Positions 918 through 61,000 of a stretch of 64,000 bases of DNA are shown piece after piece. The position numbers and the translations under genes were made by a program. The notes below the pieces were generated by a model. It was not told where the DNA came from, did no database searches, and saw only the letters and a program-made list of their open reading frames with translations. The stretch is taken from positions 1,712,920 through 1,776,919 of the forward strand of contig NZ_LR593887.1 of the NCBI RefSeq assembly GCF_901538355.1. Reading direction: 5' to 3'. Every line of letters starts with the position of its first letter. Position 1 is the stretch's first letter. Origin of the DNA: Tuwongella immobilis (lineage in GTDB: Bacteria; Planctomycetota; Planctomycetia; Gemmatales; Gemmataceae).

Positions 918-3900
918 ATGAGTTGGTTACGTGAGCCGGATACGGAGCCGATCCTCGGATATCGCCTCATCTCACCCCTGGGAACCGGGGGATTCGGGGA
1001 GGTCTGGAAGTGCATTGCGCCCGGTGGGATCGAAAAGGCAATCAAATTTGTATACGGGAATTTGAATTCGTCGGAAGATGCCGAACGAGCGGATCAAGAA
1101 TATCGGGCACTGAACCGCGTCAAAGAAGTGCGGCACCCGTTTGTGCTGCAAATGGACCGCATCGAGGTGGTGAGCGGCGAACTGCTCATCGTCATGGAGT
1201 TGGCCGATCGATCGCTTCACGATGTCTTGGTCGAACATCAATCGAATCAACAGACGGGCTTGCCGCGTGAATTGCTGCTGCGGTATCTGCATGATGCCGC
1301 CGAGGGGTTGGATTACCTCATCGAAAAGCACAATTTGCAGCACTTGGACGTGAAGCCACGCAACCTGTTCGTGGTGGCGGATCGGGTGAAGGTGGCCGAT
1401 TTCGGGCTGGTGAAGCATATCGAACGGCAGTCATCGGCGGGGCTGATGGGTGGGGTGTCGCCGTTGTATGCAGCCCCGGAAACCTTTGTCTCGAAGGTCT
1501 CTCGCCATTCGGATCAATATAGTTTGGCGATTGTTTATGTGGAACTTCTGAAGGGGGTTCGTCCCTTTTCTGGGAAGAATATTCGTCAGTTGGCGATGCA
1601 GCATATTTCGGCTCCGCCCGATTTATCGATGCTCAACGACGCGGATCAGCAAGTGGTGGCGCGGGCGCTGGCGAAGAATCCCGATGAGCGATTCCCCAGT
1701 TGCCAAGCCTTTATTCGGGCACTCATGGCCGCCACACCCGGTTTTGGCGATCCGGCCCGCGTCTCGAATTGGTCGCTCAGTATTGCCTCGCTGGGTGATT
1801 CGCGGGCCGAATTGTTCGCTCCGCCGGTGCCCGGTTCGGGGTCGCATCGGGCTCCTCGGCGTGCTGCGCTGGAACCGGATGACGATGGGGCCGTGAGTCT
1901 GGAATTGACCACGAATCCGCCTGAAGAAATGGCCAATTGGATGGCCGATTCGCCAGTCAATTGGTCGATGCCGTCGATGTCCACGACCTCGGCATTGTCA
2001 TCGATTGGTGTCTTGCGGCCGACTATTCTGATCGGGTTGGGGAACTTTGGCCGCCGGGCGCTGCTGGAGTTCCGTTGCCGATTGCTGGACCGGGTTGGTG
2101 ATCTGAAGCAGATGCCGATTTTCCGCTTTTTGTATCTGGATTCTGATCCGGAAGCAGGGGTGAAGGCGGCGAATGCGACGCCGGAAATCGCCATGGACGA
2201 AGACCATTTGCTGCACATTCCGTTGCAGCCGGTCAGTAGTTATCGGCGGCGGCATCTGGATCAACTGGTCGAATGGATTCCCGCTCAGAAGCTGTATGCG
2301 ATTCCACGCACGCTGCAACCGCTCGATTCGCGTGCGCTGGGGCGATTGGCGTTTGGCGACCACTATTTGCGAATTGTCAATCGGCTGAAGCGCGAAATTC
2401 AGGTGGCCACGCATCCGGAATCGCTGATGCAATCGCTGAGTCATTCGGGGTTGCCGCTTCGGGATGCCACGCCGCGGGTGCTGATTTTTGCCGATGCGTC
2501 GAGCGGTTCGGGCGGCCCGCTGATGGATTTGGGCTGTGCCGTACGTCGTGTGCTGGATCAACTGGGGCACCCCAAGGGGCGGATCACGCCGTTTGTATTT
2601 TGCGGCGCACCCGAAGATCCCGCGACTCCACCCATGGAGTTGGCGAATGTCTACGCCAGCATTCAGGAATTGCAGCATTTTTCTGATCCATCGGTGCCAT
2701 TTCATGCCCATTACGGGGCCGCAGATGGACCGAAATTCCAGAACGAATCATTTCCGTTTTCGGGCAGTTATTTGATCGCGCTGGAGCATCGGTCGCCGGG
2801 AATGCTCCGCGATGCCATGGCGAGACTTTCGACATATTTGCTGCAAGAATTGACGACGCCGTTGGGCAACGATCTGGAAGTGCAACGGCGGCGGGCGTTG
2901 GAGCAAAATCAGACAATTTTCCGCTGTTTTGGCAGCTTTTCCGTCTGGTTCCCTCGTGGATTGCTACTCCGCGAGGCGGCCCGGCAGGTGGGGGCGGCCA
3001 TGGTCGCCGAGTGGCAGAGCCGCGACATTCTCGCGGTTCGCCCCATGATTTCCGAATATTGCCAACGACTCACCCACGAACCGGCGTTCCAAACCGACGC
3101 CATTCGCTTTCGATTGGTCGCCGAGTTGGCCAACCGAACCGATGGCTCCGCCGAAATGGTCATTCAACGACTCTTGCAGCAACTCGAAGAGCAAGCCGCC
3201 GCTGCGTTGAATGAGAATCCCGGCGAATGGTTGCGGCAAGCGATGGACCGCATCCGTGAGGTGATTGGCCTGCGTCACGGGACCGAGGCCGAGAGCATCT
3301 ACCGCTCGTCGCGCATCGGGCAGATGATCGCCGAAGCCTCGTCGCAAATCGCCCTCGATTGGAATCATCACCTGTTGGAACGGGCGATTGCGTGGATGGA
3401 TCAGCCCGGCCCGCGCTTGGCAATGGCCGAAGAATCGGTGCGGCGGTTGATGGAATTTGCCGATCATCGCGTGGCGGAATTGGCGTGGTTGGCCCAGGAA
3501 CGGTCGATGCGTGCCCAGCAAGCCCGTGCGGAAGTGCAGGCCGCTCTCGACGCCTATCCCAAACAGGCCGGATTCCGCTTGTTCGGGTCGCGTGCCGGGC
3601 GAATTCTCCGCGTATTCCTTGATCAGGTGCGTGAATTTGCCGAGTTGCGCTACCGCGAAGAATTGGAACATGGCATTGTCGATACGTTCCGGCGCTTGCG
3701 GGCGCACCTGGAAGAACGGCTGGGCGATTTGAGCTTCTGCCGACAACGACTGACGCATTTTCAGCAGACGTTGATGGGCAATGCCGCCACGATTCCGCAT
3801 CCGCTCATGAATCCGGATCGAGTCCCGTCGTCGACTCCGTCCATGGCGGTCGATCCGCTGCATGAAGCGTTGCGGGGGTCGGATGCGGTGCGGGTGGTGC

Positions 3901-4508
3901 TTCCACGCGGCGAAGCGGAAGTCCACGAAGCGGCGGCGGCGTTCGTCTCGCGGCTGGGGCCGGATCATTTTTCGCGGCTCGAAGAATTGATTCAGTCGTT
4001 GGTGCTGACTCCGTTGGGCGGATTGTTCCGACTCTGCCAGCAATCGACCGATCTGATGATTCAACTCAGCGCGCCGCTCTTGGATCAGACGGCAGTGTTT
4101 CTGAGCGAATTGTTGCCCGTCACCGATGCCGCCCAGGTGGAATACTCCTCGTCGGTGGCACGAGAAGTCGATTTGCGAGCGGAATTGGCGTCGTATTTCG
4201 AGGCGTCCAGCCCAGCATTTGCAGGCGAGCGTCAGACACAACGGGCCTACTTGGTCGTCCCGGCAAGTCCGGCCGGCGAATGGCTGGGCAAAATCGCGCA
4301 GCAGTCGGCTCCAGAGCTGCGAGTTGTCCCGGCGGTCGCGCATACAACCGACTTAGTCATCTGTCGGGAGAGTGATTTCCTGCGGTTAGCCGACTTGGAG
4401 CCGATTTTGCAGACTTGTCGGCGGGCATATCGGGAATACTCCACGAACCCCGCGCTCTCGCCCCACTCCCGATTTGACATTCTCTCCTGGGCGTCGCTCG
4501 AAGATTAG
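918..4508 (+). CDS. Ser/Thr protein kinase fused to a tubulin-like domain
   Basis: 1196 aa. Residues about 12-270 are a Hanks-type kinase: glycine loop GTGGFGEVW (22-30), ATP lysine in AIK (K43), catalytic loop HLDVKPRN (D144, with Leu where HRD kinases have Arg), DFG at 161-163 and an APE-like YAAPE near 184. From about 367 a second domain begins with a Rossmann-like strand and glycine loop (TILIGLGNFGRRALLEF), followed by an ADASSGSGGP motif at 525-534. This matches the tubulin/FtsZ glycine-rich signature and the family usually called Tubulin_2 ('tubulin-like'). The C-terminal half is mostly alpha-helical. No transmembrane segment is seen, so it is probably cytoplasmic. The following genes encode a PARG-type hydrolase and a Rieske protein on the same strand; 83 bp separate it from the PARG. 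Kinase assignment is firm; the tubulin-like assignment rests on motif and fold pattern. Confidence 0.85.
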   Translation: MSWLREPDTEPILGYRLISPLGTGGFGEVWKCIAPGGIEKAIKFVYGNLNSSEDAERADQEYRALNRVKEVRHPFVLQMDRIEVVSGELLIVMELADRSLHDVLVEHQSNQQTGLPRELLLRYLHDAAEGLDYLIEKHNLQHLDVKPRNLFVVADRVKVADFGLVKHIERQSSAGLMGGVSPLYAAPETFVSKVSRHSDQYSLAIVYVELLKGVRPFSGKNIRQLAMQHISAPPDLSMLNDADQQVVARALAKNPDERFPSCQAFIRALMAATPGFGDPARVSNWSLSIASLGDSRAELFAPPVPGSGSHRAPRRAALEPDDDGAVSLELTTNPPEEMANWMADSPVNWSMPSMSTTSALSSIGVLRPTILIGLGNFGRRALLEFRCRLLDRVGDLKQMPIFRFLYLDSDPEAGVKAANATPEIAMDEDHLLHIPLQPVSSYRRRHLDQLVEWIPAQKLYAIPRTLQPLDSRALGRLAFGDHYLRIVNRLKREIQVATHPESLMQSLSHSGLPLRDATPRVLIFADASSGSGGPLMDLGCAVRRVLDQLGHPKGRITPFVFCGAPEDPATPPMELANVYASIQELQHFSDPSVPFHAHYGAADGPKFQNESFPFSGSYLIALEHRSPGMLRDAMARLSTYLLQELTTPLGNDLEVQRRRALEQNQTIFRCFGSFSVWFPRGLLLREAARQVGAAMVAEWQSRDILAVRPMISEYCQRLTHEPAFQTDAIRFRLVAELANRTDGSAEMVIQRLLQQLEEQAAAALNENPGEWLRQAMDRIREVIGLRHGTEAESIYRSSRIGQMIAEASSQIALDWNHHLLERAIAWMDQPGPRLAMAEESVRRLMEFADHRVAELAWLAQERSMRAQQARAEVQAALDAYPKQAGFRLFGSRAGRILRVFLDQVREFAELRYREELEHGIVDTFRRLRAHLEERLGDLSFCRQRLTHFQQTLMGNAATIPHPLMNPDRVPSSTPSMAVDPLHEALRGSDAVRVVLPRGEAEVHEAAAAFVSRLGPDHFSRLEELIQSLVLTPLGGLFRLCQQSTDLMIQLSAPLLDQTAVFLSELLPVTDAAQVEYSSSVAREVDLRAELASYFEASSPAFAGERQTQRAYLVVPASPAGEWLGKIAQQSAPELRVVPAVAHTTDLVICRESDFLRLADLEPILQTCRRAYREYSTNPALSPHSRFDILSWASLED

Positions 4509-4591: not shown

Positions 4592-5410
4592 ATGTCAAAA
4601 CGGGACCGACAGCAACTCGCCGAGCAAACCGTCGCCGTCTTGGAGCAGGGGTGGTATCTCAACGGGTTGGGCGAGCGAATCGACTTGACCGAGACTTTGG
4701 CGGCAGCACGGGACGGAACCGTGGATTATCCATCTGGATCGGCATTGCCACGGCTGCCTTCCGCCGATGCATCCACCCAGTTTGAAGTGACCAATGAATC
4801 GACCCTGCAAGCGTTGATCCGCCTCAATGACGAGGGTGAGACGCGCGTGGGCGTGTTGAATTTCGCCTCGGCAAAAAATCCCGGTGGTGGATTCCTGGGC
4901 GGCGCACAAGCCCAAGAGGAATCACTCGCCCGATCATCGGGGTTGTATCCCTGTTTGTGCCGGTCGGAAATGTACGATTTCCATCGGCAACAACGCGATT
5001 TACGCTATTCCGATTGGGTCGTCTATTCGCCGGATGTCCCGGTGATTCGCGATGATTCGGGGGATTGGCTCCCGCGACCGATTTTGGCGGGGATGCTGAC
5101 TTGCCCGGCGGTCAATGCCGGGGAATATCTGCGGCATCAACCGCGAGCGCAATCGGAAATCGCGGGCATCATGCGGAAACGCTGTCAGCGGGTGTTGCAG
5201 GTCGCGGCCGCTCATCGGCATCAAACGCTCATTCTGGGCGCGTGGGGCTGCGGCGTCTTTCGCAATGATCCGAAAATGATCGCAGAATGCTTCCGGGATG
5301 CACTCATGGGAAGCTGTCACGGGCTGTTCAACCGCGTGGTTTTTGCTATCCTGGATAACAGTTCTGCCCAGTCGAGTCTGGCAGCATTTCACGCGTTATT
5401 TCGGGGGTAA
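4592..5410 (+). CDS. bacterial-type poly(ADP-ribose) glycohydrolase (TIGR02452 family)
   Basis: 272 aa. The N-terminal half carries NPGGGFLGGAQAQEES (about 96-111), the GGG-(X)6-8-QEE signature of PARG catalytic domains, where the second Glu is catalytic. A second macrodomain-like loop GAWGCGVFRNDP lies near 232-243. The family removes ADP-ribose from modified macromolecules in the cytoplasm. GAGGA lies 6 nt before the ATG. The Rieske gene starts 5 bp after its stop, so the two are probably co-transcribed and translationally coupled. The length fits the microbial TIGR02452/DUF2263 group. Confidence 0.85.
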   Translation: MSKRDRQQLAEQTVAVLEQGWYLNGLGERIDLTETLAAARDGTVDYPSGSALPRLPSADASTQFEVTNESTLQALIRLNDEGETRVGVLNFASAKNPGGGFLGGAQAQEESLARSSGLYPCLCRSEMYDFHRQQRDLRYSDWVVYSPDVPVIRDDSGDWLPRPILAGMLTCPAVNAGEYLRHQPRAQSEIAGIMRKRCQRVLQVAAAHRHQTLILGAWGCGVFRNDPKMIAECFRDALMGSCHGLFNRVVFAILDNSSAQSSLAAFHALFRG

Positions 5411-5415
5411 TTCCC

Positions 5416-5724
5416 ATGGCGTACCATCCCGCAGTTCCCCTGGCGGAACTCGCTCCGGGTGTGGGGCGGCTCGTTGAGCTGAACGGCAAGAAGATCGCGT
5501 TGTTTCTGACCGAAGGCCAAGTTTACGCCATTGACGAAATCTGCCCGCATCGCGGGGCACCCATGCACGAAGGCGAATGCGAGGGGCTGTTCGTTACCTG
5601 CCCCTGGCATAACGCGAGCTTTGATTTGCAGACCGGAAAACATCAATGTCCCCCGGCCAAATCCGATCTCGCGGTCTATCCCGTGCGCGTCGTGGGCGAA
5701 ACGGTCGAGATTGACGTGGGTTGA
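5416..5724 (+). CDS. Rieske [2Fe-2S] ferredoxin-like protein
   Basis: 102 aa, a stand-alone Rieske domain. The two ligand motifs are complete: C43-P-H45 in ICPHRGAP and C62-P-W-H65 in VTCPWHNASF. No transmembrane segment or oxygenase domain is present, so this is the soluble NirD/BphF-like ferredoxin type that carries one electron for a partner enzyme. Its ribosome site overlaps the end of the PARG gene (GGGG about 8 nt before ATG). The electron-transfer partner is not evident in the neighbourhood. Confidence 0.88.
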   Translation: MAYHPAVPLAELAPGVGRLVELNGKKIALFLTEGQVYAIDEICPHRGAPMHEGECEGLFVTCPWHNASFDLQTGKHQCPPAKSDLAVYPVRVVGETVEIDVG

Positions 5725-5732
5725 TCCGCGTC

Positions 5733-5764
5733 GCCGAAGCCCAGTCACGATTCTGAGCTTCGGC
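5733..5764. terminator. inverted repeat between convergent genes
   Basis: GCCGAAGC (5733-5740) and GCTTCGGC (5757-5764) form a perfect 8-bp stem with a 16-nt loop, between the stop codons of the Rieske gene and the convergent hypothetical gene. There is no T-run on either side. Confidence 0.5.
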
Positions 5765-5773
5765 AGCGTTGGA

Positions 5774-6331
5774 TTATCGCAATTCTTGGAAGTGCCACAG
5801 CGGGACATGCGGCGGCAGATTCCCACTGTAATAGGCTTCCGGCCCCAGCAATTCCTGCAATCGCTTCAAGGCTTGTCGGCGAACGGTGACGTAGTAGAAT
5901 TCGCACCGAGCATCCCGGACCGAATCCCAAATCTGATACAGTCGATCCGTCTCCCGCATCGCCAATTGCAGCATGGAGCTGCGATCGGTTTCGATAGTCT
6001 GCCGAGAGTCCAAGTGGCGTCGGTAGGCGCGATTGAACGTGAGCAAATCATTGACCGCCGAGCGATCCGGGAACCGATTGGAATCTCCCACCCGCGGGGC
6101 ATCCTTGAGTTCCTGATGGCGACGACGCAACAAATTGAGGTCGTTTTCGTAATCCTCCAGCCGAGCCAGCACATAGCGGGTCTCGCGTTTGTCGAGGATT
6201 TCCCATTCCATGGCCACCTGATGGAGTGCGGCTTGAACCGCAGGCCAACGATTGGCATCAGGGGGCAATTCCGGCGTACCAGGCGGAGCAACCAGCAGAG
6301 CAGTTGCCAGCACGTATTCAAGAGCGGACAT
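5774..6331 (-). CDS. hypothetical protein, possibly exported
   Basis: 185 aa. A strong AAAGGAGG lies 5 nt before the ATG. The N-terminus has a short hydrophobic stretch (YVLATALLVAPP) that could be a weak signal peptide, then a charged, mainly helical protein rich in Arg/Glu/Leu. I do not recognise a family. It is monocistronic and convergent with the Rieske gene. Confidence 0.65.
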   Translation of the reverse strand: MSALEYVLATALLVAPPGTPELPPDANRWPAVQAALHQVAMEWEILDKRETRYVLARLEDYENDLNLLRRRHQELKDAPRVGDSNRFPDRSAVNDLLTFNRAYRRHLDSRQTIETDRSSMLQLAMRETDRLYQIWDSVRDARCEFYYVTVRRQALKRLQELLGPEAYYSGNLPPHVPLWHFQELR

Positions 6332-7034
6332 GCGTGCCTCCTTTCCGCGGTCGGCCAGTCGATGGCGCGAGGTTGGTCGGCTGGGGGCCGCGCAACCGGG
6401 GTCAGGGACAGGTCAAACCTGCGCAGTCTCGTCCCGCGAAGCTGGCCCGACACTGGCGTGCCGACTGAGAGCTTCGGGAAATGAAAATCAGGACGATGAA
6501 ACGAGTGAAAAACGGACAAACCAGAACAATCGGAAATTGAGCCTTCAGCGCATCGAGGTTGTCATCGCCTGAAGCAGGAGGGGCCAGCAGTCGAGTTTGG
6601 GATTGCTCCCGACACTCTTCGGAATCCGGTCACCTTCGCTGGAGGATCGTCAAGATCGGGATCAGCGGTCTTGTGTTTTCCGATATACCCGATTGCATTT
6701 CTCGTGCCAATAGGAGTTGTACACTTGACGATTTTCGGGGGCGGACTCCGAGTGGAACTCCTGATTGGGTCAGCACTTGGATCGGTTCGAATCTCCTTCT
6801 CAGAATTTTCATTCTCGCAAAATTCCGATCGGTGGCTCGCTTGGTGGGGTGGAAAATCCCTAAAATAGATGGAGTCGTTTGGATCAGGCTGCACGCTCAC
6901 TAAGCATTCTTGCCAACGAGTTGAGCAGCGAACCCGCCGAATTGCTTCCACCTATCGGTTCGATGCGGGTTCCGACTGCAGGGATTCTGCAAATTGCTCG
7001 GATTTTGCCTGAGTTGATGCGAGGAAGGATCGAA
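6332..7034. other. 703-bp intergenic region between divergent genes
   Basis: Upstream region of the minus-strand hypothetical gene and the plus-strand WD40 gene. All open frames here are short and mutually overlapping without ribosome sites. A weak inverted repeat (CTTCAG at 6543-6548, CTGAAG at 6569-6574) is present, and the part around 6660-6870 is relatively A+T rich and may hold the WD40 promoter. I see no clear -35/-10 pair and no RNA gene. Confidence 0.4.
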
Positions 7035-7913
7035 ATGCTTGCACTGAATGGACACAGTGGCCCCGTTACCCGGATCGCCTACTTTCCCGAAGGCGATGGA
7101 GTGGTCAGCCTAGCCGATGACGGGACGATCCGGACTTGGGCACCACCCGAGGAAATTCGCACGTTGGGACCATTCCCAAAACGCATGCGGACCTTGATGG
7201 TCACCCCCCAACGCAAACTGATCTATGCCGGAGATGACGGGACGGTCTCCCAAGTCGATCTCGCACCCGCAGATGCCAAACCGATTCGGATTCCCGGCCT
7301 TTTCGCACAAATCACCTCCCTGGTCAATGTCGATCGCCTCGACGCCATAGCCATCGGCATGGGCAAGGTTGGCACCGAACAAGCCGGGGGGATTCAGTTC
7401 TATTGTCCATCTCGACCGCGCGCCCTGCCGCCAATCAGCGAGATGCGCGGCGTCTGGCACATGGCCTACTGTCGGGAACGCAATCTGCTGGTCTGGGCGA
7501 CGGGCAGCCGCGAACTCGCAATCTGGGAATTGAGCCGACCCGATGCCAGACGGGTGCGACTGAATCAAGGGGCGGCAGCGGTGGCAATTTCGCCCGACGG
7601 AACCAGTATCGCTGTCACCGAGGATCGCAATATCCGCATCTTCGATTCGCAGCAACGGTCGGAACGCCTGATTCTCAAAGGACATCAGGCCGCCGTGCGC
7701 TGTGTCGCATTTCATCCCAATGGGCACCTCATCGCCACCGGCAGTTGGGACCAGACCATCCGGTTATGGGATGTTGCGACCGGGGCCGAGCGCTATCAAC
7801 TGAAACTGCCCGTGGGCAAAGTCCATTCCATCTGTTTTGCCCCGGATGGGCTGAGTGCAGCGGTCGGCGGTGGGGATGGACTATTTCTTTGGGATACCGA
7901 TCAATTCGTTTGA
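7035..7913 (+). CDS. WD40 repeat protein
   Basis: 292 aa from the chosen start. The open frame begins earlier (TTG at 6879), but the ATG at 7035 has GAGGAAGG six bases upstream and opens directly on the first WD40 blade, so it is preferred. Blades are visible as LNGHSGPVTRIAYFPEGD...IRTWA, a central variable region, and a clear C-terminal pair (LKGHQAAVRCVAFHPNGH...WDQTIRLWD). Probably a cytoplasmic beta-propeller scaffold; there is no kinase or signal peptide in the same frame. A strong hairpin follows the stop. Confidence 0.82.
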   Translation: MLALNGHSGPVTRIAYFPEGDGVVSLADDGTIRTWAPPEEIRTLGPFPKRMRTLMVTPQRKLIYAGDDGTVSQVDLAPADAKPIRIPGLFAQITSLVNVDRLDAIAIGMGKVGTEQAGGIQFYCPSRPRALPPISEMRGVWHMAYCRERNLLVWATGSRELAIWELSRPDARRVRLNQGAAAVAISPDGTSIAVTEDRNIRIFDSQQRSERLILKGHQAAVRCVAFHPNGHLIATGSWDQTIRLWDVATGAERYQLKLPVGKVHSICFAPDGLSAAVGGGDGLFLWDTDQFV

Positions 7914-8867: not shown

Positions 8868-11492
8868 CTATTCCACGAGCCGCCATTCCTCCAGATTAAC
8901 CGGTTGCGGTGGGGCGGCGTTCGGAACTCCGCCCGGATTCCCCGGTTGATTCGGCTGACCACCCGCCGGAGCCGGTCGCTTGAGATAACGTCGCTTCTCG
9001 ACCAGACCGACCTTCTCGACGAAGATGAAATGATTAATCATCTCACCACCAGGGGCCGGTTCCGTCGTCTTGATCGTGACCGCATTCCGATCCTTATGCT
9101 TAGCAAACGATTCAACCGTGTAGGTTCGGAAGTCACCGGCATCATTCAGAGGATGTTTCCAAGAATCACCTTCTTTGGCACCCAGCTTCAGAACCGGCTC
9201 GTAGGTGGCCTTGACGGCATCACGACCGGCACCGATCTCGATCAGTTCTTCCGATTTCCGGTAGAACATCGGAGTGGGCTTGGAGGCAGGTGGTTCTCGC
9301 AAGGCCCAGATCGGGGTACCACCATTCAGAAGGCTGTTATCCGTCAAAACACCGGATTTGATCCGAGTTCGATCGATCTGGCCTTCTTTTGTGAATTCAA
9401 ATCGATAGCGACCCAAAGTCATTCCGTTGTTTCCGAGGAAGGCGATATCGTAGATCAACGGCTTCTCGACTTTTTCCGGATAGAAAAAGACGGGAGTGAC
9501 TTTGGCGACATCCGGCACCATTGGCATCGGCATTGGCATCGGCATCGGTTCCGGAGGCATCCCCACGTTCATCGGGGGATTCTTCGGATCATTCTTGGGT
9601 TCTGCCTTGGGCTCGGCCTTCGGTTCGACTTTTGGTTCCACCTTCGGCTCAACCTTGGGTTCCACCCGAATCGGTGGATTGTCCGGCGGCTTCGGCTGCG
9701 ATTGTTGCGGTGGTGGCGGTTGTTGCTGCTGCGGCAACGGCGGCGGTGGCAACTGGGCGAACTGAGTCGGGTCCGGCTCCGGTTCGGCACGCATGGCATA
9801 GATCAACACCCCCGCCAGTGCGGTGATGAGTGCCAAGGTGCAAGTCGCCAATGTCGCCATTAGCTCCTGTTGCTTGCGTTTCGCCAGCCGTTCTTCGTTC
9901 GACTGTTTATTTTTCTTCTTCTTTTTGCCGGGGCTATCAATGACCTCGGCTTCGACAACGACTTCGGCAACCACCACTGGTGTCGCTGCCGATTTCGATG
10001 CACCGGAAGCACCTGCGCTCCGTGGGGCGGAACTCCCAGTCGGTTTCGAGGCGGGACGTGTGCTCGAATTGGAGGCCGACGGCTGTTTGCTCCCTGGCGA
10101 TGATTTCGGTGTCGGGGCAGGGGTCTTGGTCTGTTCGTTTTTGATCGACCGCGTTTCGGCAGGCGAACCCGATGACCGAGAGCTTCCCGAGCCGCTCGAA
10201 CTACTCGTTCCCGAACTGCTCGGACTGACCAGCCGAATCGACGACCCGCTCGCGCTCCCCAGATTCATCCGTTCGGTCCGATCATCCGAAGGCGGAATCG
10301 CCGGCTTGCGACGAAGTTCCGACGACGATGCGGACGAAGACGTATCCAACGGCGACGGGAGCGAAATCGCGGCGATGCCCGTTTCGGAAACTGGCGAATC
10401 CAAGTTGATGGGTGCCAATGGTTTCGGCATTTCATCTTCGCTGGGCACATGCACGGACATATTCCGCCATGTCATCAGCGCTTCGGCCACTTCCGCAGGA
10501 GACTGGTAGCGATCTTCGGGCCGCTTGGCGATCATCTTCAGCAGCACGGCTTCCATCTCGGGCGGAATGCCCGCGCGCAGCTCGCTAGGCGGCTTGGGCG
10601 GTCGCATGTGGTGCCAAACGAGCTTTTGGGCAACAGTCCCGTGACCGAATGGCGTTTGCCCGGTAAGCAGGAAGTAGAACGTAATCCCTAGCGAATAGAT
10701 GTCTGCACGAATATCGACGTTGTGGCTATCCACGCCTTGTTCGGGGGCGAGATAATCGGCGGTCCCGAGCACGGCCGAGGAATCGTGCTGCTTCGTCAGT
10801 TCATCCGCATCATCATGGAAGAACAGGGCCAGGCCCAAGTCGAGAATTTTGAGTGTGCCCGAGCGATCGACCAGCAAGTTGGCTGGCTTGATGTCCCGGT
10901 GAACCAGGCCCATTTCGTGGGCGTGTTGCAAGCCTTGGCTGGCTTGGGCGATGTAGTGGGCGGCTCGCGCGGGATCAATCGGCCCGACTCGTTTGACGAG
11001 ATCCTGCAAGCTAATGCCATCGACATATTCGATGACCAGAAAGTGCATGGGGCCGTCCGCATCCACATCGTGAGCGCGAACGATATTCGGATGGTCAAGA
11101 GAGGCACAAGCGCGGGCTTCGCGGTGGAAGCGTTCTAGGGCAGTCGGATTCTTGGCCATGGCCAGCGGGAGGACTTTGATCGCTACCCGTCGGCGCATGA
11201 TTCGGTGTTCGCAGAGATAGACGCTGGCCATCCCCCCCGCACCGAGTCGATCCATGAGTTTGTACTTGCCAGCGATCACGAATCGTCGCGGCTTGTTTTG
11301 CAGAAGGGGTTCTGCCTGGAACCGCGTCATGAGTCCTTGCTGGATCATGAGTTCGGCCAGCGCTTCAGGATCATCCGGCAGGGAATTCTGCGACCGCAAC
11401 CCCTGGAGGTACGCCTCCAAACGTCGCCCGTCCATCACCCCGCATTTGCGGACCATATCCACGAATTCGTCGAGACTACACACCGATGGCAT
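8868..11492 (-). CDS. membrane Ser/Thr protein kinase with proline-rich and C-terminal exported domain
   Basis: 874 aa from ATG 11492; AGGTGG is 8 nt upstream, and a GTG four codons earlier is the alternative. An N-terminal ~65-aa helical segment common before planctomycete kinases is followed by a complete Hanks kinase: RLGAGGMASVY, VAIKVLP, VHRDIKPANLL, LDLGLALF and APEQ. A long Ser/Thr/Pro-rich linker leads to a KKKKNK cluster and one transmembrane helix (LATCTLALITALAGVLIYAM). Outside it come a Pro/Gln tract, tandem (V/A)EPK repeats and an MP repeat, then a ~190-aa beta-rich domain of unknown type that may be a sensor. It is divergent from an FHA-domain gene, a natural phospho-threonine reader. 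Confidence 0.9.
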   Translation of the reverse strand: MPSVCSLDEFVDMVRKCGVMDGRRLEAYLQGLRSQNSLPDDPEALAELMIQQGLMTRFQAEPLLQNKPRRFVIAGKYKLMDRLGAGGMASVYLCEHRIMRRRVAIKVLPLAMAKNPTALERFHREARACASLDHPNIVRAHDVDADGPMHFLVIEYVDGISLQDLVKRVGPIDPARAAHYIAQASQGLQHAHEMGLVHRDIKPANLLVDRSGTLKILDLGLALFFHDDADELTKQHDSSAVLGTADYLAPEQGVDSHNVDIRADIYSLGITFYFLLTGQTPFGHGTVAQKLVWHHMRPPKPPSELRAGIPPEMEAVLLKMIAKRPEDRYQSPAEVAEALMTWRNMSVHVPSEDEMPKPLAPINLDSPVSETGIAAISLPSPLDTSSSASSSELRRKPAIPPSDDRTERMNLGSASGSSIRLVSPSSSGTSSSSGSGSSRSSGSPAETRSIKNEQTKTPAPTPKSSPGSKQPSASNSSTRPASKPTGSSAPRSAGASGASKSAATPVVVAEVVVEAEVIDSPGKKKKKNKQSNEERLAKRKQQELMATLATCTLALITALAGVLIYAMRAEPEPDPTQFAQLPPPPLPQQQQPPPPQQSQPKPPDNPPIRVEPKVEPKVEPKVEPKAEPKAEPKNDPKNPPMNVGMPPEPMPMPMPMPMVPDVAKVTPVFFYPEKVEKPLIYDIAFLGNNGMTLGRYRFEFTKEGQIDRTRIKSGVLTDNSLLNGGTPIWALREPPASKPTPMFYRKSEELIEIGAGRDAVKATYEPVLKLGAKEGDSWKHPLNDAGDFRTYTVESFAKHKDRNAVTIKTTEPAPGGEMINHFIFVEKVGLVEKRRYLKRPAPAGGQPNQPGNPGGVPNAAPPQPVNLEEWRLVE
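9522..9666. repeat. in-frame short tandem repeats in the kinase gene
   Basis: On the minus strand two low-complexity tracts are encoded back to back: about six copies of a 12-nt unit giving (V/A)EPK around 9600-9660, and a hexamer-based Met-Pro repeat around 9522-9548. Both are multiples of three, so copy changes would alter spacer length outside the membrane without shifting the frame. Confidence 0.7.
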
Positions 11493-11931
11493 CCGCCGGC
11501 CCACCTAAAAGAAGTAGTACCCCCACAATGCCCTGATTGATTGGAGAGACAGGCGATTCAGGGGTGCGAGGATCTGTGCGCAGCAAAATTTAGTGCCAGA
11601 ATTCACGATAATCCCGTCCGAAACAGAAGTCAAGCATTCACTTTCCGTCCTTGGGAGTTCTCGCCAGATTTCCTCAAGAAAACTCGGAATCTACTGGCAG
11701 GGGTCAAAATTTATGCTACAACGTGTACAGGTGATTTGTTGTCGATCGCATCTGGAATACCTATCGCCATTCGGCGTTCACACACCGTTTCGATTGTGAG
11801 AGTTCCAGCCGACAACTCCCAACCCGATCCATACCGTGGTGCCCTTCGTGCCCCCTCTCGATGGACCAACCATTCGGATCGATTGGCGACTCGCTGACGG
11901 GATTGATCTGTTTGCTCTCGTGGTGACGCTC
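11493..11931. other. 439-bp divergent intergenic region (kinase/FHA)
   Basis: Shared upstream region of the kinase and FHA genes. The part near 11690-11750 is A+T rich and includes AAAATTTATGCTACAAC, a possible -10 element for the FHA gene, without a convincing -35. No conserved small gene is visible. The in-frame GTG at 11836 would lengthen the FHA protein by 32 residues but has no ribosome site. Confidence 0.4.
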
Positions 11932-12927
11932 ATGATGACCGATACCCCGTTTCCCGATCCGAATCCCAATGATCCGGATCGCTCCAATCCGTCTCCGCCA
12001 CCGCCTCCCACCGGGGCCACACCCGATTCCACCCCTCAGCCCCATCGTGGGTTGCCGGACGAATCGATGTCGCCAACGGTGCGACTACCTGGGGTGCCGA
12101 TGATCGTTTCGGAAGACGCCGACGCTGCCGGAGCGACCAACGCCGCTCCCGAGGCGAATGTGCCGCCGGTCATCCCCGAACCCCCCTTAACCGAACCCAC
12201 CCGCCCACCGTTGATTGCATCATCGACTGGGGATTCGAGTCCGAATCCGCCAAGCCCCGTGCCGCCTGTGCGACACACAGCGATGCACACCGATGCCATG
12301 CAAATGACCGAGCTGCAGCGGTTGCGGCCCCCACGCCCCAATTCGCCACCAAACCCACCCGAGAATCAATCCGCCAACCCGTCCGGCAGCACGACGGCTT
12401 CGACTGAACCGGGCGCGGTTGCCGAAAATCTGAATAGCACACCGAAACGCGGTTCGATGGTCATCTCAACCGCGCAATCGCCCATGAACTACCTCAGTCC
12501 CGCACCCGAAACCGGACCCGGCGTCACTGCCAGTGGATTCGGTGGACCACTCGCGGGCCAATCCTCCGCTCCCCCCACGCCATCGTCCGCGCTCCCGATT
12601 CAGGCACGACCCAAGTTGATGGTGCTGCGTGGCGAGAAGTTAAACGTGCAATATCCCTTGTACGAGGGACCGAATTATCTGGGGCGAACCGATGAGAAAC
12701 CCGTCGATATCGACCTCGAAGACCAAGAGGCTTCGGATCGAATCTGGACCTCACGGCAGCATGCGTGCATCACCTATCAGAATGGTGTGTTGACGATTGA
12801 AGATCTGAATAGTCTCAATGGCACGTTCGTGAATCGAATGCGCGTGCATCCGGGGCAACAGCGGATTCTGCAAGTCAATGATATCATTCAAGTTGGAACC
12901 GTTCAGATGAAAGTCATTCTCGCCTGA
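11932..12927 (+). CDS. FHA-domain protein with long disordered N-terminus
   Basis: 331 aa from the ATG pair at 11932/11935. Residues 1-220 are Pro/Asn/Ser/Thr-rich and probably disordered. The C-terminal ~100 residues form an FHA domain: YLGRTDE (the phosphopeptide-binding Gly-Arg), SRQHACITY (Ser-Arg-x-His) and DLNSLNGTFVN (Asn-Gly-Thr). FHA domains bind phosphothreonine peptides, so the neighbouring divergent Ser/Thr kinase is a plausible partner (inference). No transmembrane segment. A perfect 12-bp inverted repeat follows the gene. Confidence 0.88.
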   Translation: MMTDTPFPDPNPNDPDRSNPSPPPPPTGATPDSTPQPHRGLPDESMSPTVRLPGVPMIVSEDADAAGATNAAPEANVPPVIPEPPLTEPTRPPLIASSTGDSSPNPPSPVPPVRHTAMHTDAMQMTELQRLRPPRPNSPPNPPENQSANPSGSTTASTEPGAVAENLNSTPKRGSMVISTAQSPMNYLSPAPETGPGVTASGFGGPLAGQSSAPPTPSSALPIQARPKLMVLRGEKLNVQYPLYEGPNYLGRTDEKPVDIDLEDQEASDRIWTSRQHACITYQNGVLTIEDLNSLNGTFVNRMRVHPGQQRILQVNDIIQVGTVQMKVILA

Positions 12928-53396: not shown

Positions 53397-56300
53397 TCAA
53401 TTGCCGAGAGGTGATTCGCTCGTCGTTTCGCGGAGATCGAACTCGCGGATGGCGGCCCAGACATCGCGATCCATGCGGCGACGCACCCGATATTCGTCCT
53501 CATCCAACCAGCGACGCACCGTGGGACCGAGGTTGAAATCTTCATTCACAATCGACCGCACCACGGTTTCCACAAACATCAGCGTCGGCAGCGTGTAGTG
53601 GGTGTTCGTGGTGCCAATGAGCTGAGTGTTTCGCAAGCGTTGGAACAGATCGTCGAGTCGTCCCAACGCCACGCGGATCGGCGCTTGGCTGAGCGCGGTG
53701 ACGTAATGAATCGCCAGCCACGTTTGGTCCAATCCCTCCAGTGATTGATTCAGCAGCAGTAATTCGCGAGTCAAATCCAACACCTGCATCGCCGCATCGT
53801 CTTGTTTCTGAGCAAACCAGCCGGTGGTCAGCACCAATAATGATCGCAGGGTGATCGGCCAAAGATCACCCGATTGTTGGCGAAGTTGCGGCAACGGTAA
53901 ATTCCGAGTGATCCACGGCTCCAGTGTTTGCATCAACCGTTCGCATTCTGCCAATTGCGCTGTGCGCCGCAGCGAGCGCAGCATCAGCCAGTTCAACGCT
54001 TGGAATTCCTCAGTTTCCAAGTCCCGTCGTGGATACCGGAACAATCGCAGCAGGTGGCGATTGAATTCCGGCAGTCGGCCGGATTGTCCCATGGCGATGG
54101 CTGCGGAAATCGCCCGTTCCAGCAGACGAATTTGCAGCGTCGCCGATCCATCGAGCCGCTCCACGGCGGATTCCACCAGTCGCAGCGCTCGCAGGGCTAA
54201 CCCTTCGGAAATGCGAGGCAGCAATTCCAAGATCGCTTGCAACACTTGCGGCAACACCGCGGCCGATTCCGGGGAGTGGCAGCGATCGAGCAGTTGCGTG
54301 GCGTTGTCTGTCAGCGTTTGCGAATCGAGGGTATCCGGCAGATGCCGCAGTGTGGCGAGCATCGGCGTCGGGTCGGCATAATGCCGGGTCATCGCCGCTC
54401 GATACGCATCGATCCGTTCCACGGGCTCCAGAATCCGCGAATGTTCCCGAAGTTTATCGACTTTGTAGCGTTCCTCATCCGGCAATTCGAGAATGCGATG
54501 CAGCAGATCCATTGGCAGCGGGCCGGAATTGGTTTTCCCTTCTTGCACCTGCTGAATGCGGAAATCAAAGGCAAAATACAGCAGCGAATGCACCCGATCG
54601 TCTTTGTGCAGTAGTTGTCGCGCCTGCTGTCGCAGGGCATTGCAGGCGTTGTGTTCGCCCAATCGGGCCAAGCCCCACGCCAAAATCAGGTCGGTGAAAG
54701 CCCGAGTGGCGTGAAGATCGGGATCGAGTCCGAATCGCTGCAAATGCGATGCGTGGTTCGGCAATTCGGGATTGGCGCCGGTCGCGCGGGGTTGCGAGGT
54801 CTCGTGAATCCAACGGCGAATCGGCTCCCGAATCCGCATCATCCAATCCCGGACATCGGTGTAGCGATCGCTGACCCCCCGCGAGGCGAACCGCAGAAAC
54901 GACGGCACATCCAAATCGAGGCTAAATCCGTGCTTTTTCAGCCGATGCATCAGCCGATCGCGGGTGCGTGCCAGACTCAGCAGATCGCCGCGAGTCAGCC
55001 GCATCATCGCCATCCGCGTCAGCCACACCGCGCGAATCGGCAGCCAATTTTCGTGCTGATCGAGATAGCGCTGAATTGCGGGGAGCAGTTCGCTCAACTC
55101 ATCTGGCTGCGATTCGATCAGCGAAATCCACACCAGATACGCCGCGATACTGCGTGCGCGGGCGGGGTTCGGCACCGCCTCCATCCAAGTGCGAATGGAG
55201 GGCGTTTCGGCAAGATTTCGCCCACGAGTCCGAGCATCGCGTTCGACCACGCCCCGAACCTGCCGCGATTCCGCTTGCAACCAGCCCCATGCCCATAAAT
55301 GCGTCAGTTGCGATTGCTCCCAGAGGGCGTTCAACCAGCAGACGGCGGAATCCCCTGCGAGGTTGCTGCGGCCATACATCGCGGCCAATTCCGGCCAGAA
55401 TTCGAGCATTTTTTGCGGGTCGAACTGTTCCAGCGACTCCAAAAATCGCGTCTCCAGCAATTGACGCCGCGAGGCCAGATCCGACAAGCGATCCGGTTCC
55501 ACGAACGCTTCGACTGACCCGGAATCGGTCTTTTTCCGGCTGACGAATGTGCTGATCGACTCGGTAAGCGTCGGCGGGGGCAATTCGCTTTCCGACTGGC
55601 GGTCGGCGGGTTGATTGGTAGAGCGATCGCCGATCGCAGGGGGCGTCGTTAGTCGGGAGAACATGCGGGCAAAGCGTTCCCAAAATCGCGGCGGTGCGGG
55701 CGGGATTGCCGGCGCGGGCGATTCCGGCAGCGTCACTCGACCCGATTCCGTGGTGACGGCGGTTTGCGGTGCGGTGGCCGGCGACCATCTCGACCGCGTC
55801 GCGGGCTGTTCCACCCGCTGGAAAAATGGCAGATCGTCCAGAAACGCCGTCCCCGATTCCGAGATCGCGTGCGACCGCACCGGTGGCAACGAATATCGAA
55901 CGTGGCTGAGAATCGGTTGGAATGCCTGCGTGGGGATGGATTCGATTCGGAAGCCGCCTTCCGTCGTGGGCATCAGCCAGATTGTCCGTACCTGATCCAC
56001 ACCCAGAAGCGAGCGGATCACGTCGCGTCGCAGAATCGGGGTAAGTCGCATCCCACTGGGAACAAACACGTTGGGGAGTTTCAGCAGGCCGGTGAATCCC
56101 TGACCGGATTCCGGTAGCCACACCAGCGGCTGACGCGGCACGCGCAATCGCAGCAGCAACCGCCACCCGCCATCGGGACGCGCCGACCAGGCGAAATTGA
56201 GCCGCGACAGCGTCCATTCTTCCATCGAATCGGCCATCGCATGCAGATGATGCTGATCCGCACAATCGATGACCCAAAATTCGGGGGAACTCGTGGCTGT

Positions 56301-57008
56301 GGTCGGAATCAATCGCAGCGGGTGCTGCATGCGAAGCGGGGCAGGGTGATCGCGCAGCGGCGGCTTGCGCGCGGGAAGTGGTAGGGGGTCGCTGGTTGCG
56401 GGCAAAAACGGCCCACGCGGAATCGTCCGCCAGCGATCCGACCGTTCCAGCACCAGCACCGCATCATCCGGCGGGGAAAGCTGATTTGCCAGCGGATGCG
56501 CCTGATTCAGCGGCACCCAGACATCGGGCACCTGCTCATGAAAAATGCGCACCGGGGTGAGTCGGTCGTGCAGTCGGCCGAGCAGAAATTCGGGCAATCG
56601 CTCGACCAAAAGCCAGCCCATTTCCGCATCGGGTTCCACCCAGCGAAAGCCGATGCGCTGGGGGGCAAATCGGCGGAGTTGGCCGATGATCTGCGGCATT
56701 TCCGAGATGGGAATTTCCAGCATCAGCGGACGCGGAGTTGGGCCGACATACGGCGTCAACGGAATCAGTTGCTGCCAGCAGGAAATCGGTTGCAGCATTT
56801 CGCTGGCACTGGAGCCAAGCACCCGCACGCCGAATCGCGTGAGCATGGTGACGAGATCCCGCGACAAGGGGACTTCCGGCCGCAGCCAGATTCGCCCCTG
56901 GGCGTCGCGTCCCGCTGATGCCGCGCCGCGCGTGATCGCCAGCGGGACAACCCCCGTGGCGAGTGCCCGACGCAAGGCATCTGGTTCGGGAAAGCACAGC
57001 ACCGGCAT
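53397..57008 (-). CDS. large cassette protein of unknown fold, paralogue of the 1140-aa protein
   Basis: 1203 aa from ATG 57008. I do not recognise a named family. It aligns by eye over most of its length with the 1140-aa product two genes upstream: N-terminal LRRALATGVVP, VWVPLNQAHPLANQL, KLPNVFVPSGMRLTPILRR, a central WPELAA...CWLNALWEQ region, RAVWLTRMAM...DRLMHRL...FLRFA, and a C-terminal RRWLDEDEYRVRRRMDRD. The C-terminal half is helical and may be repeat-like (TPR-type). A Pro-rich linker lies near 460-560. No transmembrane segment or catalytic motif is seen. It is the last gene of the cassette. Confidence 0.8.
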   Translation of the reverse strand: MPVLCFPEPDALRRALATGVVPLAITRGAASAGRDAQGRIWLRPEVPLSRDLVTMLTRFGVRVLGSSASEMLQPISCWQQLIPLTPYVGPTPRPLMLEIPISEMPQIIGQLRRFAPQRIGFRWVEPDAEMGWLLVERLPEFLLGRLHDRLTPVRIFHEQVPDVWVPLNQAHPLANQLSPPDDAVLVLERSDRWRTIPRGPFLPATSDPLPLPARKPPLRDHPAPLRMQHPLRLIPTTATSSPEFWVIDCADQHHLHAMADSMEEWTLSRLNFAWSARPDGGWRLLLRLRVPRQPLVWLPESGQGFTGLLKLPNVFVPSGMRLTPILRRDVIRSLLGVDQVRTIWLMPTTEGGFRIESIPTQAFQPILSHVRYSLPPVRSHAISESGTAFLDDLPFFQRVEQPATRSRWSPATAPQTAVTTESGRVTLPESPAPAIPPAPPRFWERFARMFSRLTTPPAIGDRSTNQPADRQSESELPPPTLTESISTFVSRKKTDSGSVEAFVEPDRLSDLASRRQLLETRFLESLEQFDPQKMLEFWPELAAMYGRSNLAGDSAVCWLNALWEQSQLTHLWAWGWLQAESRQVRGVVERDARTRGRNLAETPSIRTWMEAVPNPARARSIAAYLVWISLIESQPDELSELLPAIQRYLDQHENWLPIRAVWLTRMAMMRLTRGDLLSLARTRDRLMHRLKKHGFSLDLDVPSFLRFASRGVSDRYTDVRDWMMRIREPIRRWIHETSQPRATGANPELPNHASHLQRFGLDPDLHATRAFTDLILAWGLARLGEHNACNALRQQARQLLHKDDRVHSLLYFAFDFRIQQVQEGKTNSGPLPMDLLHRILELPDEERYKVDKLREHSRILEPVERIDAYRAAMTRHYADPTPMLATLRHLPDTLDSQTLTDNATQLLDRCHSPESAAVLPQVLQAILELLPRISEGLALRALRLVESAVERLDGSATLQIRLLERAISAAIAMGQSGRLPEFNRHLLRLFRYPRRDLETEEFQALNWLMLRSLRRTAQLAECERLMQTLEPWITRNLPLPQLRQQSGDLWPITLRSLLVLTTGWFAQKQDDAAMQVLDLTRELLLLNQSLEGLDQTWLAIHYVTALSQAPIRVALGRLDDLFQRLRNTQLIGTTNTHYTLPTLMFVETVVRSIVNEDFNLGPTVRRWLDEDEYRVRRRMDRDVWAAIREFDLRETTSESPLGN

Positions 57009-57070
57009 GGTTACTCGACCCCTGTTGACGCACCTGGCACGCTTCGGCATGCGAGCCAAGCGGGTGCGGG

Positions 57071-57943
57071 TTATGGTCCCCAGGTTTCTCGCACCCATTC
57101 GCGGATTCGTTGGCCGCGACGCTCTTCGACGACGATAGCCCGTTCCAGCAGACGGATTTGATCCGCCATCGCCGACGTGCGCTTCTGCACATCCCGATGC
57201 AGGCGTTCGACATCGCGCTCCGCATCGCTGAGCGCCCGCGATTGGTCTTTCACCCGACGATAGGCCGTGGTCAATTCATCGTCGAGATCGTCCAGACTCC
57301 GCTGCAATTGCGAGAGTTGCTGATGGAATGCCCGCAATTCTTTGCCTTTTTCTTTGAGATATTCCAGATTCGTCTTCTGGGCCGCCTGCCACAATTGCAG
57401 TCGTTCGCGGGCCATCTGCGGCGATTTCAGCAACAGTTCGGGCGTGAGTGCGAGTTTCGCTTCGGTCGATTCCGCAATCACGCCAATGGGCAACGTCACA
57501 ATTGGCTTGAGGCGATCCTCCAACTCGCGCGGTTCGCGGTCGAGTTTGGCATTGCGAAGCGATTGGGCCAGAGATTGGGCCAAGCGTTCGGCACCGGGCA
57601 AATCGCGCCGCCGATCGACGCATTCGATCACCGCTTCTGCCTGTTCGGTCCAGGTCTCCACCTCCCGACGAAACTTGTCGGCCCAGCGGCTGACTTCCCG
57701 GAATTCCGGTTCTTCATCGTCGATGGTGTCGGAAAATTGTTTCGGTTCCAAGGCCGGATAGCGTTCCGTGACTCGTTCGAGCGATTCGCGGAATCGTTCG
57801 AGTCGCTGTTTGGCGGCCTGCAATTCCAATTCGCTGGGTTGGGCGAACGGTTGGGCACGGAGCGCGGCCACCCCGATGCCGCCTGAGCATACCACCGCAG
57901 GCACCAGCAACCCCAACAGGGCCATTCGCCATCCAGACGGCAT
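57071..57943 (-). CDS. membrane-anchored coiled-coil protein of the FtsH-like cassette
   Basis: 290 aa from ATG 57943 (GGAG 8 nt upstream). An N-terminal signal anchor (MALLGLLVPAVVCSGGIGVA) is followed by an almost entirely charged, helical protein with heptad-like patterns, strongest in the C-terminal ~110 residues (LDDLDDELTTAYRRVKDQ, DVERLHRDVQKRTSAMADQ). No domain recognised. Anchored by its N-terminus, the coiled coil would lie outside or along the membrane. It sits between the two large paralogues with gaps of 88 and 62 bp. Confidence 0.75.
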   Translation of the reverse strand: MPSGWRMALLGLLVPAVVCSGGIGVAALRAQPFAQPSELELQAAKQRLERFRESLERVTERYPALEPKQFSDTIDDEEPEFREVSRWADKFRREVETWTEQAEAVIECVDRRRDLPGAERLAQSLAQSLRNAKLDREPRELEDRLKPIVTLPIGVIAESTEAKLALTPELLLKSPQMARERLQLWQAAQKTNLEYLKEKGKELRAFHQQLSQLQRSLDDLDDELTTAYRRVKDQSRALSDAERDVERLHRDVQKRTSAMADQIRLLERAIVVEERRGQRIREWVRETWGP

Positions 57944-58031: not shown

Positions 58032-61000
58032 TTATTCGCTTCCGCTGAGCCGCCGCCGCATGTCGCGGTGGATTCGGCGACGCACCAGAAATTCATCTTC
58101 GTCCAACCAACGGCGAGCATTCGGCCCCTGGGTGAATTCATCGCTGACAATGGAATTCACAACATCTTCGATAATGTTCAAATGCAACCGGGAATAGTAG
58201 GCCGACGTCGTAAAGCTATTCGTCAGCGGTTGCAAACGCTTGAACATTTCTTCGAGTCGGGCCAAGGTCGTCTCGGCGGGCAACCGCGAAAGTGCGGCCA
58301 CATAGGCGCGGGTCAACTGGGTGTAGTGCAATGGCTGCATGCGTGGCTGCGAGACGGCCGGCTCGAACAGCATATGCCGGGCTTCTTCCATCACCGGTTC
58401 CGCCAGTTCGGCGCGACCCGAATCGATCCACCCGGAGCCGAGATACAACAACGTCCGCACCATCTGCCAGGCGTTGGTTGCTTCAGCTTTGATGACTTGA
58501 TCCACGGGCCGATTGTTGAGAATCAGCGTTGAAATCTCGTCGATCATCGCTTGGGCTTGATCGCGCAACCCCAACCGTCGCAGATTCCGCAGACAATCCC
58601 CCGCCACCCGGTTGATCATCTCGGCACGATCCGCGGTCGGACGGCCTTTGAGCATGTGCAGGAAACGGTTGCTCAAATCGCGGACGACATCGCCTCGATC
58701 GTACAACGCCGAGATGGTCATGCCGCGTTCCAGCAGATTGCACTGGCTTTCGATGGCGTTGGTTTCGTTGGGCTGAACGGGGGCGACCAAGGTTTCCGGC
58801 ACAAATTGCAGCAGCGACAGCGCCAACTCTTCGCCGACTCGCGGGACAATCGCCAGCAGTTGCGTGAGCAAGTATCGCCGGGTGCTGATGGGCTGATTCG
58901 GCTTCAGCCCTTCTGCCACCAGTTGCGTAACGCGATGCTTCAGCACTTCCGGCTGGCGAATGTCGGGCAGTTCGTCGAGCATTCGCAACAGCGGATCGGT
59001 GCGGTGGAAGATGCGGCGATACGGGTCGAATTTCTCCGCCGGCTCCAGAATCCGCGACTGTTCCAACAACCGATCAATGGCGTAGCGTGGCACCTTGTCG
59101 ATGCGTTCCAGCAGCGTGAGCAACTCGTTGGGCAGCGGCCCTGTCGCCGGGCGACCCGCGAGTACCTGATCGATGCGATGCCGGAAGGCTTCGGAGAGGA
59201 ACTGATGCACCTCGTCGCGACCACCAGCGGGATGCCGTCGCAGCGCCAGGGCATCACTGGCCCGCGTGAGCAGTTGGCGAGCCAATGTCGTTTCGCCGAC
59301 ACGGGCTTGACCATAGGCGAACATGAGATCAATGTACGAACGATTGGCCTGCATCGTCGGTTCTTCGCCGTTCCAACGCAGCGCCAACGTGTGGAGCGAC
59401 TCCAGTCGATCATGCACCAGCCGCGCTCGGGCACTGTCTCGCAGCCCCGCAAACCGCAGGAAGGTGGGCATGTCCCGTTCTTGATTCAACCCTTCTTCGT
59501 GCAGTCGGGCGATGAGTCGGTCCCGCACTCGGGCGAGGGTGAGTTCGTCTTGATACGACAACGCCATCCAACTGAGCCAGACAGCGCGGACACCCAGTCG
59601 CGTTTCGTTCATCTCCAGATATTGCGTCAATTTCGGCAACCGCTCCCGAATCACCGGGGAATTCGGCTCGGTCGCCATTGCATAGAGAATCTGACCGACG
59701 AATTGACGCAATTCGGACGCCGTGGGCGAACTTCGGGCCAACAGGCGATCGAGTTCCCCGGCAGTGACGGTTCGATGGGCGTGCGGATTTTCGCTCAGCA
59801 GCCAGGCCCACAATTCCTCAGCATCCGGCTGCTTGGATTCCCAGAAACTGTTGACCCAACAGAGCGAGGCATCGGACGGCTCGCGCAATCCGGCGTTGAT
59901 TTTCGCTAACTTTGGCCACAGCGCCAATCGTTCGGGGGCATCCAACGACCCTTCGATGTCGAAGAATTGTTTTTCCAGATCATCCCGTTGCAAGCGCAAT
60001 TCTGATGGCGTTTGTTGGACCATTTCCGCGTTAAATTGCGGATCTTGCCCTGCGGATTTGCGGGATTGTTGCGCGCGCCGGGCGGTAATCGCACCCGCGT
60101 CGGGAATGACTTCGGGGTTGCCTTCGAGTCGGTCCGCGCTATCCGATTTCGACTTGCGACCACTGGGCGGCTTTGGCGAGCCGCTCGATTCTTCGGGGCA
60201 TTGGAACGACTCAAACTCGAACTGCATCGCCTGCATCCAACTGGTGAGTTGCTGGCGCTGATGATCGATGATGTAGTTGATCCACTCTTCCAGCGGGCGG
60301 AACGCCTCATCGGGCAGACTTTCCGGCACAAACACGCCAACTTTGTTGCCTTCGGCTTCCTTTTCGGGGAACAGCCAGACGATGCGGCTGGGGTCTTCGG
60401 CGAGCAGTTGCCGCACCTTCTCCCGGCGGAGCGTCGGCATCAGCCGAGTCCCCACGGGCAGGAACAGATTCGGCAGCTTCCAGAACGGCTTGAATCCCAG
60501 CGCATCGACCAGTGCCAAGGTGGGCGGCGGCAGTTTCGATGGCCGCACGCGCAGGATGATCGTCGGCGATCCAGTGTCGTCATGCGTGACCGCAAAATTC
60601 AGCCGAGCCAGGAGTTTATCCTCGGCGTCGCGCACCAGCGTATCCAGTTGATCGACCGCATTGCGACGAAGAATCCACATCTCGGGAAGATCCGCGGCGT
60701 TCCCGGCAGCCAGGCGCAGCGGCACCTGCATCGGGGATTCCAGCTTGGCCTCTTCCCATTGCACGGTCTCCCCGGCGATGGGGAAATCGACGATTTCGTA
60801 AATGTCGTGGAATGCGGTATTTTCCAGCACCATCCATTCGCGTGGTGCCCGCAGCAACAGCATCTGCCCTTCGGCGGGGCGGAGTTGGTCGGCCAACGGA
60901 TGGTTGAATCCCAGTTCGACCCAGACGCGCGGCGCGCGTTCGATGAAGGCGCGGATCGGCCCGGTGCGTTTGCCGATGCCGCCTTCGGTGGCCCGCAGCA

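Follow-up and report, generated by a model that had tools for sequence, protein, structure and literature searches.

A kinase–tubulin protein of Tuwongella immobilis with a predicted insert-split tubulin fold and a shortened phosphate loop

What does a protein kinase do when it is joined in one polypeptide to a relative of tubulin, and does the tubulin part of such a protein still handle nucleotide as a tubulin does? The question is raised by a gene at 918..4508 (+) of the window, by which we mean the whole 64,000-nucleotide stretch of the Tuwongella immobilis genome that was analysed; its open reading frame has exactly these ends and encodes 1196 residues. The initial annotation read the gene as a kinase fused to a tubulin/FtsZ-like domain and proposed a profile search to check the second part. 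Pfam recognizes both domains: Pkinase (PF00069) matches residues 15–263 (E 1.2e-32; 113.8 bits, cut-off 31.7) and Tubulin_2 (PF13809) matches residues 370–696 (E 3.1e-23; 83 bits, cut-off 27), the latter at full length, i.e. over profile positions 1–355 of 356. The kinase lies N-terminal to the FtsZ-like domain in a single reading frame, and the second part has a predicted tubulin fold. The fusion is thus upheld, and profile, alignment and predicted structure together show a soluble three-part protein in which a flexible linker connects a non-RD Ser/Thr kinase to a complete tubulin/FtsZ fold that an insert interrupts.

This architecture has been described since 2010, when Makarova and Koonin defined the FtsZl1 family and reported that it includes planctomycete proteins with a kinase at the N-terminus (PMC2875224). 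The planctomycete kinase–FtsZl1 fusion was repeated in 2023 (PMC9871819), and in a 2024 survey the purely cytoplasmic Ser/Thr kinases of planctomycetes had the tubulin-like domain as partner more often than any other (PMC11032199). Additionally, the genome of the window organism (one contig, 6.69 Mb) holds three kinase–tubulin copies, and PF13809 occurs in 33 of the 37 genomes of its family, mostly in 1–4 copies and in frames of ~1200 residues. Calling such fusions unusual, as the initial annotation did, is therefore no longer tenable. What goes beyond the FtsZl1 accounts cited here is the ~400-residue insertion together with the C-terminal domain, the short T4 loop of one paralog class, and the absence of FtsZ together with adjacency to scpA.

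The kinase domain (960..1706, +) carries the glycine loop GTGGFGEV, the VAIK lysine K43, HLD at residues 142–144, DFG and APE. Our alignment and tree took in 51 kinase–tubulin fusions, and across these relatives the VAIK lysine, the HxD aspartate, the catalytic-loop asparagine, DFG and APE are invariant. The replacement of HRD by HLD in the catalytic loop, already remarked on from the single sequence, proves to be family-wide: position 143 is L in 50 of 51 and M in the remaining one (HMD), such that none is an RD kinase. In non-RD kinases, activation-loop phosphorylation is generally dispensable, and the same may hold here. Within classes, kinase identity runs at 65–73% versus 20–49% for other regions. 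A PD-T4-6/MADS defence kinase was rejected as an assignment; the match is limited to residues 15–274, and the NCBIfam MAD6 score of 82.7 bits falls below the cut-off of 460. The linker that follows (residues 264–364; 1707..2009, +) is poorly conserved, with ~20% identity against 65% for the kinase within class C, and across relatives it is composed of ~19% Ser/Thr and ~15% Pro.

Does the remainder of the protein fold as a tubulin? This point had been set beforehand as the one on which the annotation would turn, and an AlphaFold2 model of residues 357–1196, built from 53 aligned sequences, has the tubulin fold (mean pLDDT 90.1, pTM 0.84; the AlphaFold2 models contain neither nucleotide nor partner). 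Among the Foldseek matches shown against the PDB with E < 0.001, all are tubulin, CetZ, TubZ or FtsZ. By VIA-align the best match is CetZ (3zid; Z 26.0, rmsd 3.3 Å, 292 residues), with model residues 10–821 set against CetZ residues 1–344; a model of the class A paralog matches CetZ with Z 27.6 over model residues 11–794 and FtsZ (2r6r) with Z 23.4, residues 12–810 lying against chain residues 8–328. The GTPase-type domain with strands S1–S7, delimited by PF13809, the model and PDB superposition, occupies residues 366–677 (2013..2948, +), with S1–S7 themselves at 369–677, and includes the predicted core helix H7 (627–646). Directly after H7, the model and the by-class alignment place a predicted T7-like segment, LTTPLGNDLEVQR (residues 645–657; 2850..2888, +), which is without NxDxxD; class C members usually have an acidic residue there. 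The NxDxxD motif is catalytic in FtsZ. From residue ~680 to ~1096 (2955..4205, +), DSSP assigns a helical/coiled-coil insertion of ~400 residues; helices of up to 63 residues lie in model residues 443–597 and further helical sequence follows, which gives the coiled coil and the mostly helical C-terminal part known from the family. In other words, the initial annotation was right that a long helical part is present, but that part is inserted into the tubulin fold and does not trail behind it.

Past the insert, the model continues with a strand (1108–1115), a helix (1118–1130), two strands (1134–1139 and 1145–1152) and a helix (1157–1175), an order that matches S8-H10-S9-S10-H11 of the tubulin C-terminal domain; we predict this domain at residues 1108–1175 (4239..4442, +), in agreement with the CetZ superposition and likewise with the class A model. 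As the alignment tool reports first and last aligned residues only, the residue-level mapping of this domain draws on the superposition ranges and on the topology. The 2010 account had found neither T6-H7 nor the C-terminal domain in FtsZl1 (PMC2875224). The models now offer a candidate for each, that for the C-terminal domain lying at the extreme C-terminus past the insert, and the predicted two-domain fold removes one stated ground, a missing C-terminal domain, for doubting that FtsZl1 proteins form filaments in the usual way. In the open-access papers searched we found none in which FtsZl1 was modelled with AlphaFold. The relation to tubulin emerges from the Pfam profile and from the fold; a sequence-only profile search of solved structures did not show it and returned only helical-bundle and apolipoprotein noise. 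From a viral fold library, just a few tubulin-like phage proteins were matched.

Where does this copy stand among the three of its genome? Paralogs A and B usually lie in tandem, and the window gene belongs to a third, dispersed class, C, which forms a 13-row clade with support 100 in the tree of 51 fusions; the nine rows from the organism's own family form a subclade with support 99. A scan of our genome collection added ~50 class C orthologues (tubulin-domain identity mostly 42–56%), labelled nearly all as Gemmataceae, Gemmata, Fimbriiglobus, Limnoglobus, Zavarzinella or planctomycetes without a name. The closest relative in the collection, L053:3-2720, is 56% identical in the tubulin domain. 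Because a related protein is conserved in ~50 other Gemmataceae-type genomes, the window gene is a maintained gene and not a chance one; chance or misassembly of the fusion was likewise rejected, as the architecture repeats in dozens of independent genomes. Median tubulin-domain identity within a class is 49% for C, 36% for A and 41% for B; since class C tubulin domains are the best conserved of the three, the altered loop of this class, to which we turn below, appears to sit in a constrained and remodelled protein, not a decaying one. Outside the organism's class PF13809 is sparse (3 of ~100 genomes sampled from other families), and the kinase fusion was found only within the class (families f1, f2 and f5 checked). 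The complete hits examined from outside the class, which leaves aside L124 because it starts inside the domain, have no kinase motifs in the same frame. Two contigs binned as a Bacteroidales MAG (UW1SPNA076; L108 and L116) carry Gemmataceae-type kinase–tubulin sequence and are most likely mis-binned planctomycete contigs.

Is the nucleotide site of class C that of a working GTPase? In FtsZ and tubulin, the GGGTGSG loop holds the phosphates. The initial annotation had seen SGSGGP in the position of this signature, and the location is right, as residues 529–534 align with T4 of the paralogs, GG[TS]G[SG]GM; the motif is not an equivalent of GGGTGSG, however, but a shortened, eroded T4 loop. Measured as the distance in residues from one fixed anchor to another (P519 and D537 of the window protein), this phosphate loop (SSGSGGP, residues 528–534; 2499..2519, +) is one residue short: the spacing is 18 in every measurable class C sequence of the organism's family (~45 distinct loops) versus 19 in every measurable A/B-type kinase fusion and in the measurable class C sequences of the sister family (L021, L022, L025, L030, L101, L102, L103 and L105). 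The leading GG, too, is gone from the window protein, which reads SSGSG-GP, and from L053, its closest relative, which reads ESGLS-GC. The signature GGGTG(S/T)G is present in paralogs A and B of the same genome and absent from the window protein, which we therefore class as a divergent homologue rather than an FtsZl1 GTPase. In the class A model helix H4 extends from T4 without a gap; in the window model it breaks after residue 176 (177–178). One deletion in the common ancestor of the family's class C sequences would be the simplest reading of the alignment, and class C may have lost GTP hydrolysis or binding. A loop one residue short need not abolish binding, since the T1 loop ILIGLGNFGRR (residues 370–380; 2025..2057, +) retains GxGxxG (GLGNFG) and the T2 aspartates D408 and D410 are kept. 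The idea that GTP state might be coupled to phosphorylation is least likely for the window copy, given the state of its T4 loop.

The genomic setting of A and B adds a further clue, one that bears on the window gene by kinship only. In the same genome the A–B tandem and, behind it, the sole scpA gene of the genome lie at L033:6495-14492 (C1:2762494-2770491); scpA comes directly after B, and its open frame overlaps the end of B. ScpA is the condensin kleisin. Of the 29 family genomes in which both genes occur, coordinate comparison shows 9 (G000, G001, G008, G009, G011, G019, G023, G025 and G032) with scpA directly after a same-strand kinase–tubulin gene. Chance would hardly bring this about time and again, given one scpA and one to four kinase–tubulin genes in a complement of thousands; the adjacency may be a matter of housekeeping gene order only. 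Searches for FtsZ (TIGR00065) and for PF00091 found no match in the window genome, and both were positive in 13 of 14 control genomes. In the open-access papers searched we found none that joins ScpA, planctomycetes, FtsZ-like proteins and kinases. Divergently upstream of A lie genes for a PF04476 protein ((5-formylfuran-3-yl)methyl phosphate synthase-like) and an ASCH-domain protein (L033:5109-6244), an arrangement kept in several genomes, and in three genomes an HSP70-like protein with DUF3731 is encoded near the A/B tandem (L034:15874-18648, L038:17757-20000 and L040:15900-18734), which recalls published tubulin–HSP70 pairings (PMC7159879).

Class C genes keep no such company. Among 47 class C neighbourhoods no broadly conserved neighbour was found, the best being a family of ~698 residues in 9 of 47, and for want of conserved neighbours a physical tie of class C to A/B or ScpA is unsupported by gene context. 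Neighbours of the window gene at 4592-7913 include PARG, Rieske and WD40 proteins, and an operon of FtsZl1 type, with a vWA protein, a GTPase or an OmpA-like protein, was not found there. The gene directly 3' encodes a microbial-type poly(ADP-ribose) glycohydrolase (4592-5410, +), a position that is not kept in relatives. Farther along the window are a second Ser/Thr kinase, proline-rich and of RD type (8868-11504, −), divergent from an FHA-domain protein (11836-12927, +), and two large 'FtsH ternary system domain X7' proteins near each other (53397-57098 and 58032-61454, −); their family, PF20005, is of conflict-system type.

How might such proteins work together? The account we favour, at a confidence that falls somewhat short of even, is that A and B are GTP-binding polymer subunits, that class C is a nucleotide-altered, kinase-bearing partner, and that the polymer serves segregation or division without FtsZ. 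A and B would bind GTP and assemble into polymers by way of their tubulin folds; class C, with its altered nucleotide loop, would probably be a non-hydrolysing partner that binds A/B polymers or their ends via tubulin surfaces and so places its kinase there; and the kinase would act in trans, phosphorylating linkers or other proteins bound to the polymer. That scpA recurs behind A/B suggests that the polymer may help to segregate chromosomes or to divide the cell where FtsZ is absent. Decidedly doubtful is a bolder form of this account, in which Gemmata-type planctomycetes would possess a segregation/division machine made of GTP-binding A and B, co-transcribed with ScpA, and regulated by C as a co-assembling, non-hydrolysing pseudo-tubulin kinase.

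Is a polymer needed at all? Perhaps the tubulin domain, in the window copy and across the family, is a nucleotide-independent scaffold that together with the coiled coil forms a dimerisation platform, with no filament and with the whole protein acting as a cytoplasmic signalling kinase. The non-canonical T7 segment without NxDxxD, the big helical insert within the fold, the altered T4 of class C and a kinase far better conserved (65–73% within classes) than the rest (20–49%) would all suit such a scaffold. We nevertheless consider it rather unlikely, as it is hard to explain without a nucleotide or assembly function why A and B retain a canonical T4 across genera, and the complete two-domain fold in both modelled classes, C and A, presents the same difficulty.

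The opposite proposal, that class C is a normal GTP binder in which the deletion merely re-shapes T4, and that it polymerises like A/B, possibly with other kinetics, strikes us as unlikely. The retained T1 GxGxxG and T2 D-x-D speak for it, as does the glycine-rich GGS[GS]GM loop kept by most class C proteins; yet loop length is fixed at 19 in all measurable A/B-type fusions and in sister-family class C, the leading GG is missing from the window protein (SSGSGGP) and from L053 (ESGLSGC), and the window model has a break in H4. Very improbable, finally, is a part in a conflict or defence system, which would recall GTPase-centred systems (PMC7159879) and the kinase PD-T4-6. PADLOC kinase models do match the kinase part (mad6 3e-42, PD-T4-6 6e-38) and three genomes encode an HSP70-like protein close to the A/B tandem, but the PADLOC matches are confined to the kinase and reflect general kinase similarity, PF13809 is near-universal in the family (33 of 37 genomes), and there are no variable effector-type neighbours, with no vWA, GTPase or MoxR gene seen adjoining. 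The wider interest of these proteins lies in how planctomycetes without FtsZ divide and segregate their chromosomes: the conserved kinase–tubulins supply named genes and residues with which to pursue the matter, two of the set lying beside scpA and one having a consistently remodelled nucleotide loop.

How does the window protein compare with known systems? Alpha/beta-tubulin and BtubA/B, tandem tubulin-fold paralogs whose nucleotide sites perhaps differ in activity, may serve as a working analogy only, for A, B and C are related to them by fold alone and an A/B/C assembly is putative. From CetZ, tubulin and FtsZ in general, the window protein differs in its ~11% identity, its fused kinase, its altered T4, its T7 loop without NxDxxD and the ~400-residue insertion between S7 and S8; it shares with them a complete two-domain tubulin fold in the model, with CetZ the closest. 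The FtsZl1 proteins L125 and L126 of other planctomycetes, which are not fused, also have a Tubulin_2 domain and a long C-terminal region but, unlike the window protein, no kinase motif in the same frame. The published planctomycete kinase–FtsZl1 proteins (PMC2875224, PMC9871819, PMC11032199) have the same order of kinase, FtsZ-like domain, coiled coil and mostly helical C-terminal part. Their loop, GG[TS]G[SG]G, is intact in paralogs A and B of the window genome, whereas the window copy comes from a paralog class in which T4 is one residue short.
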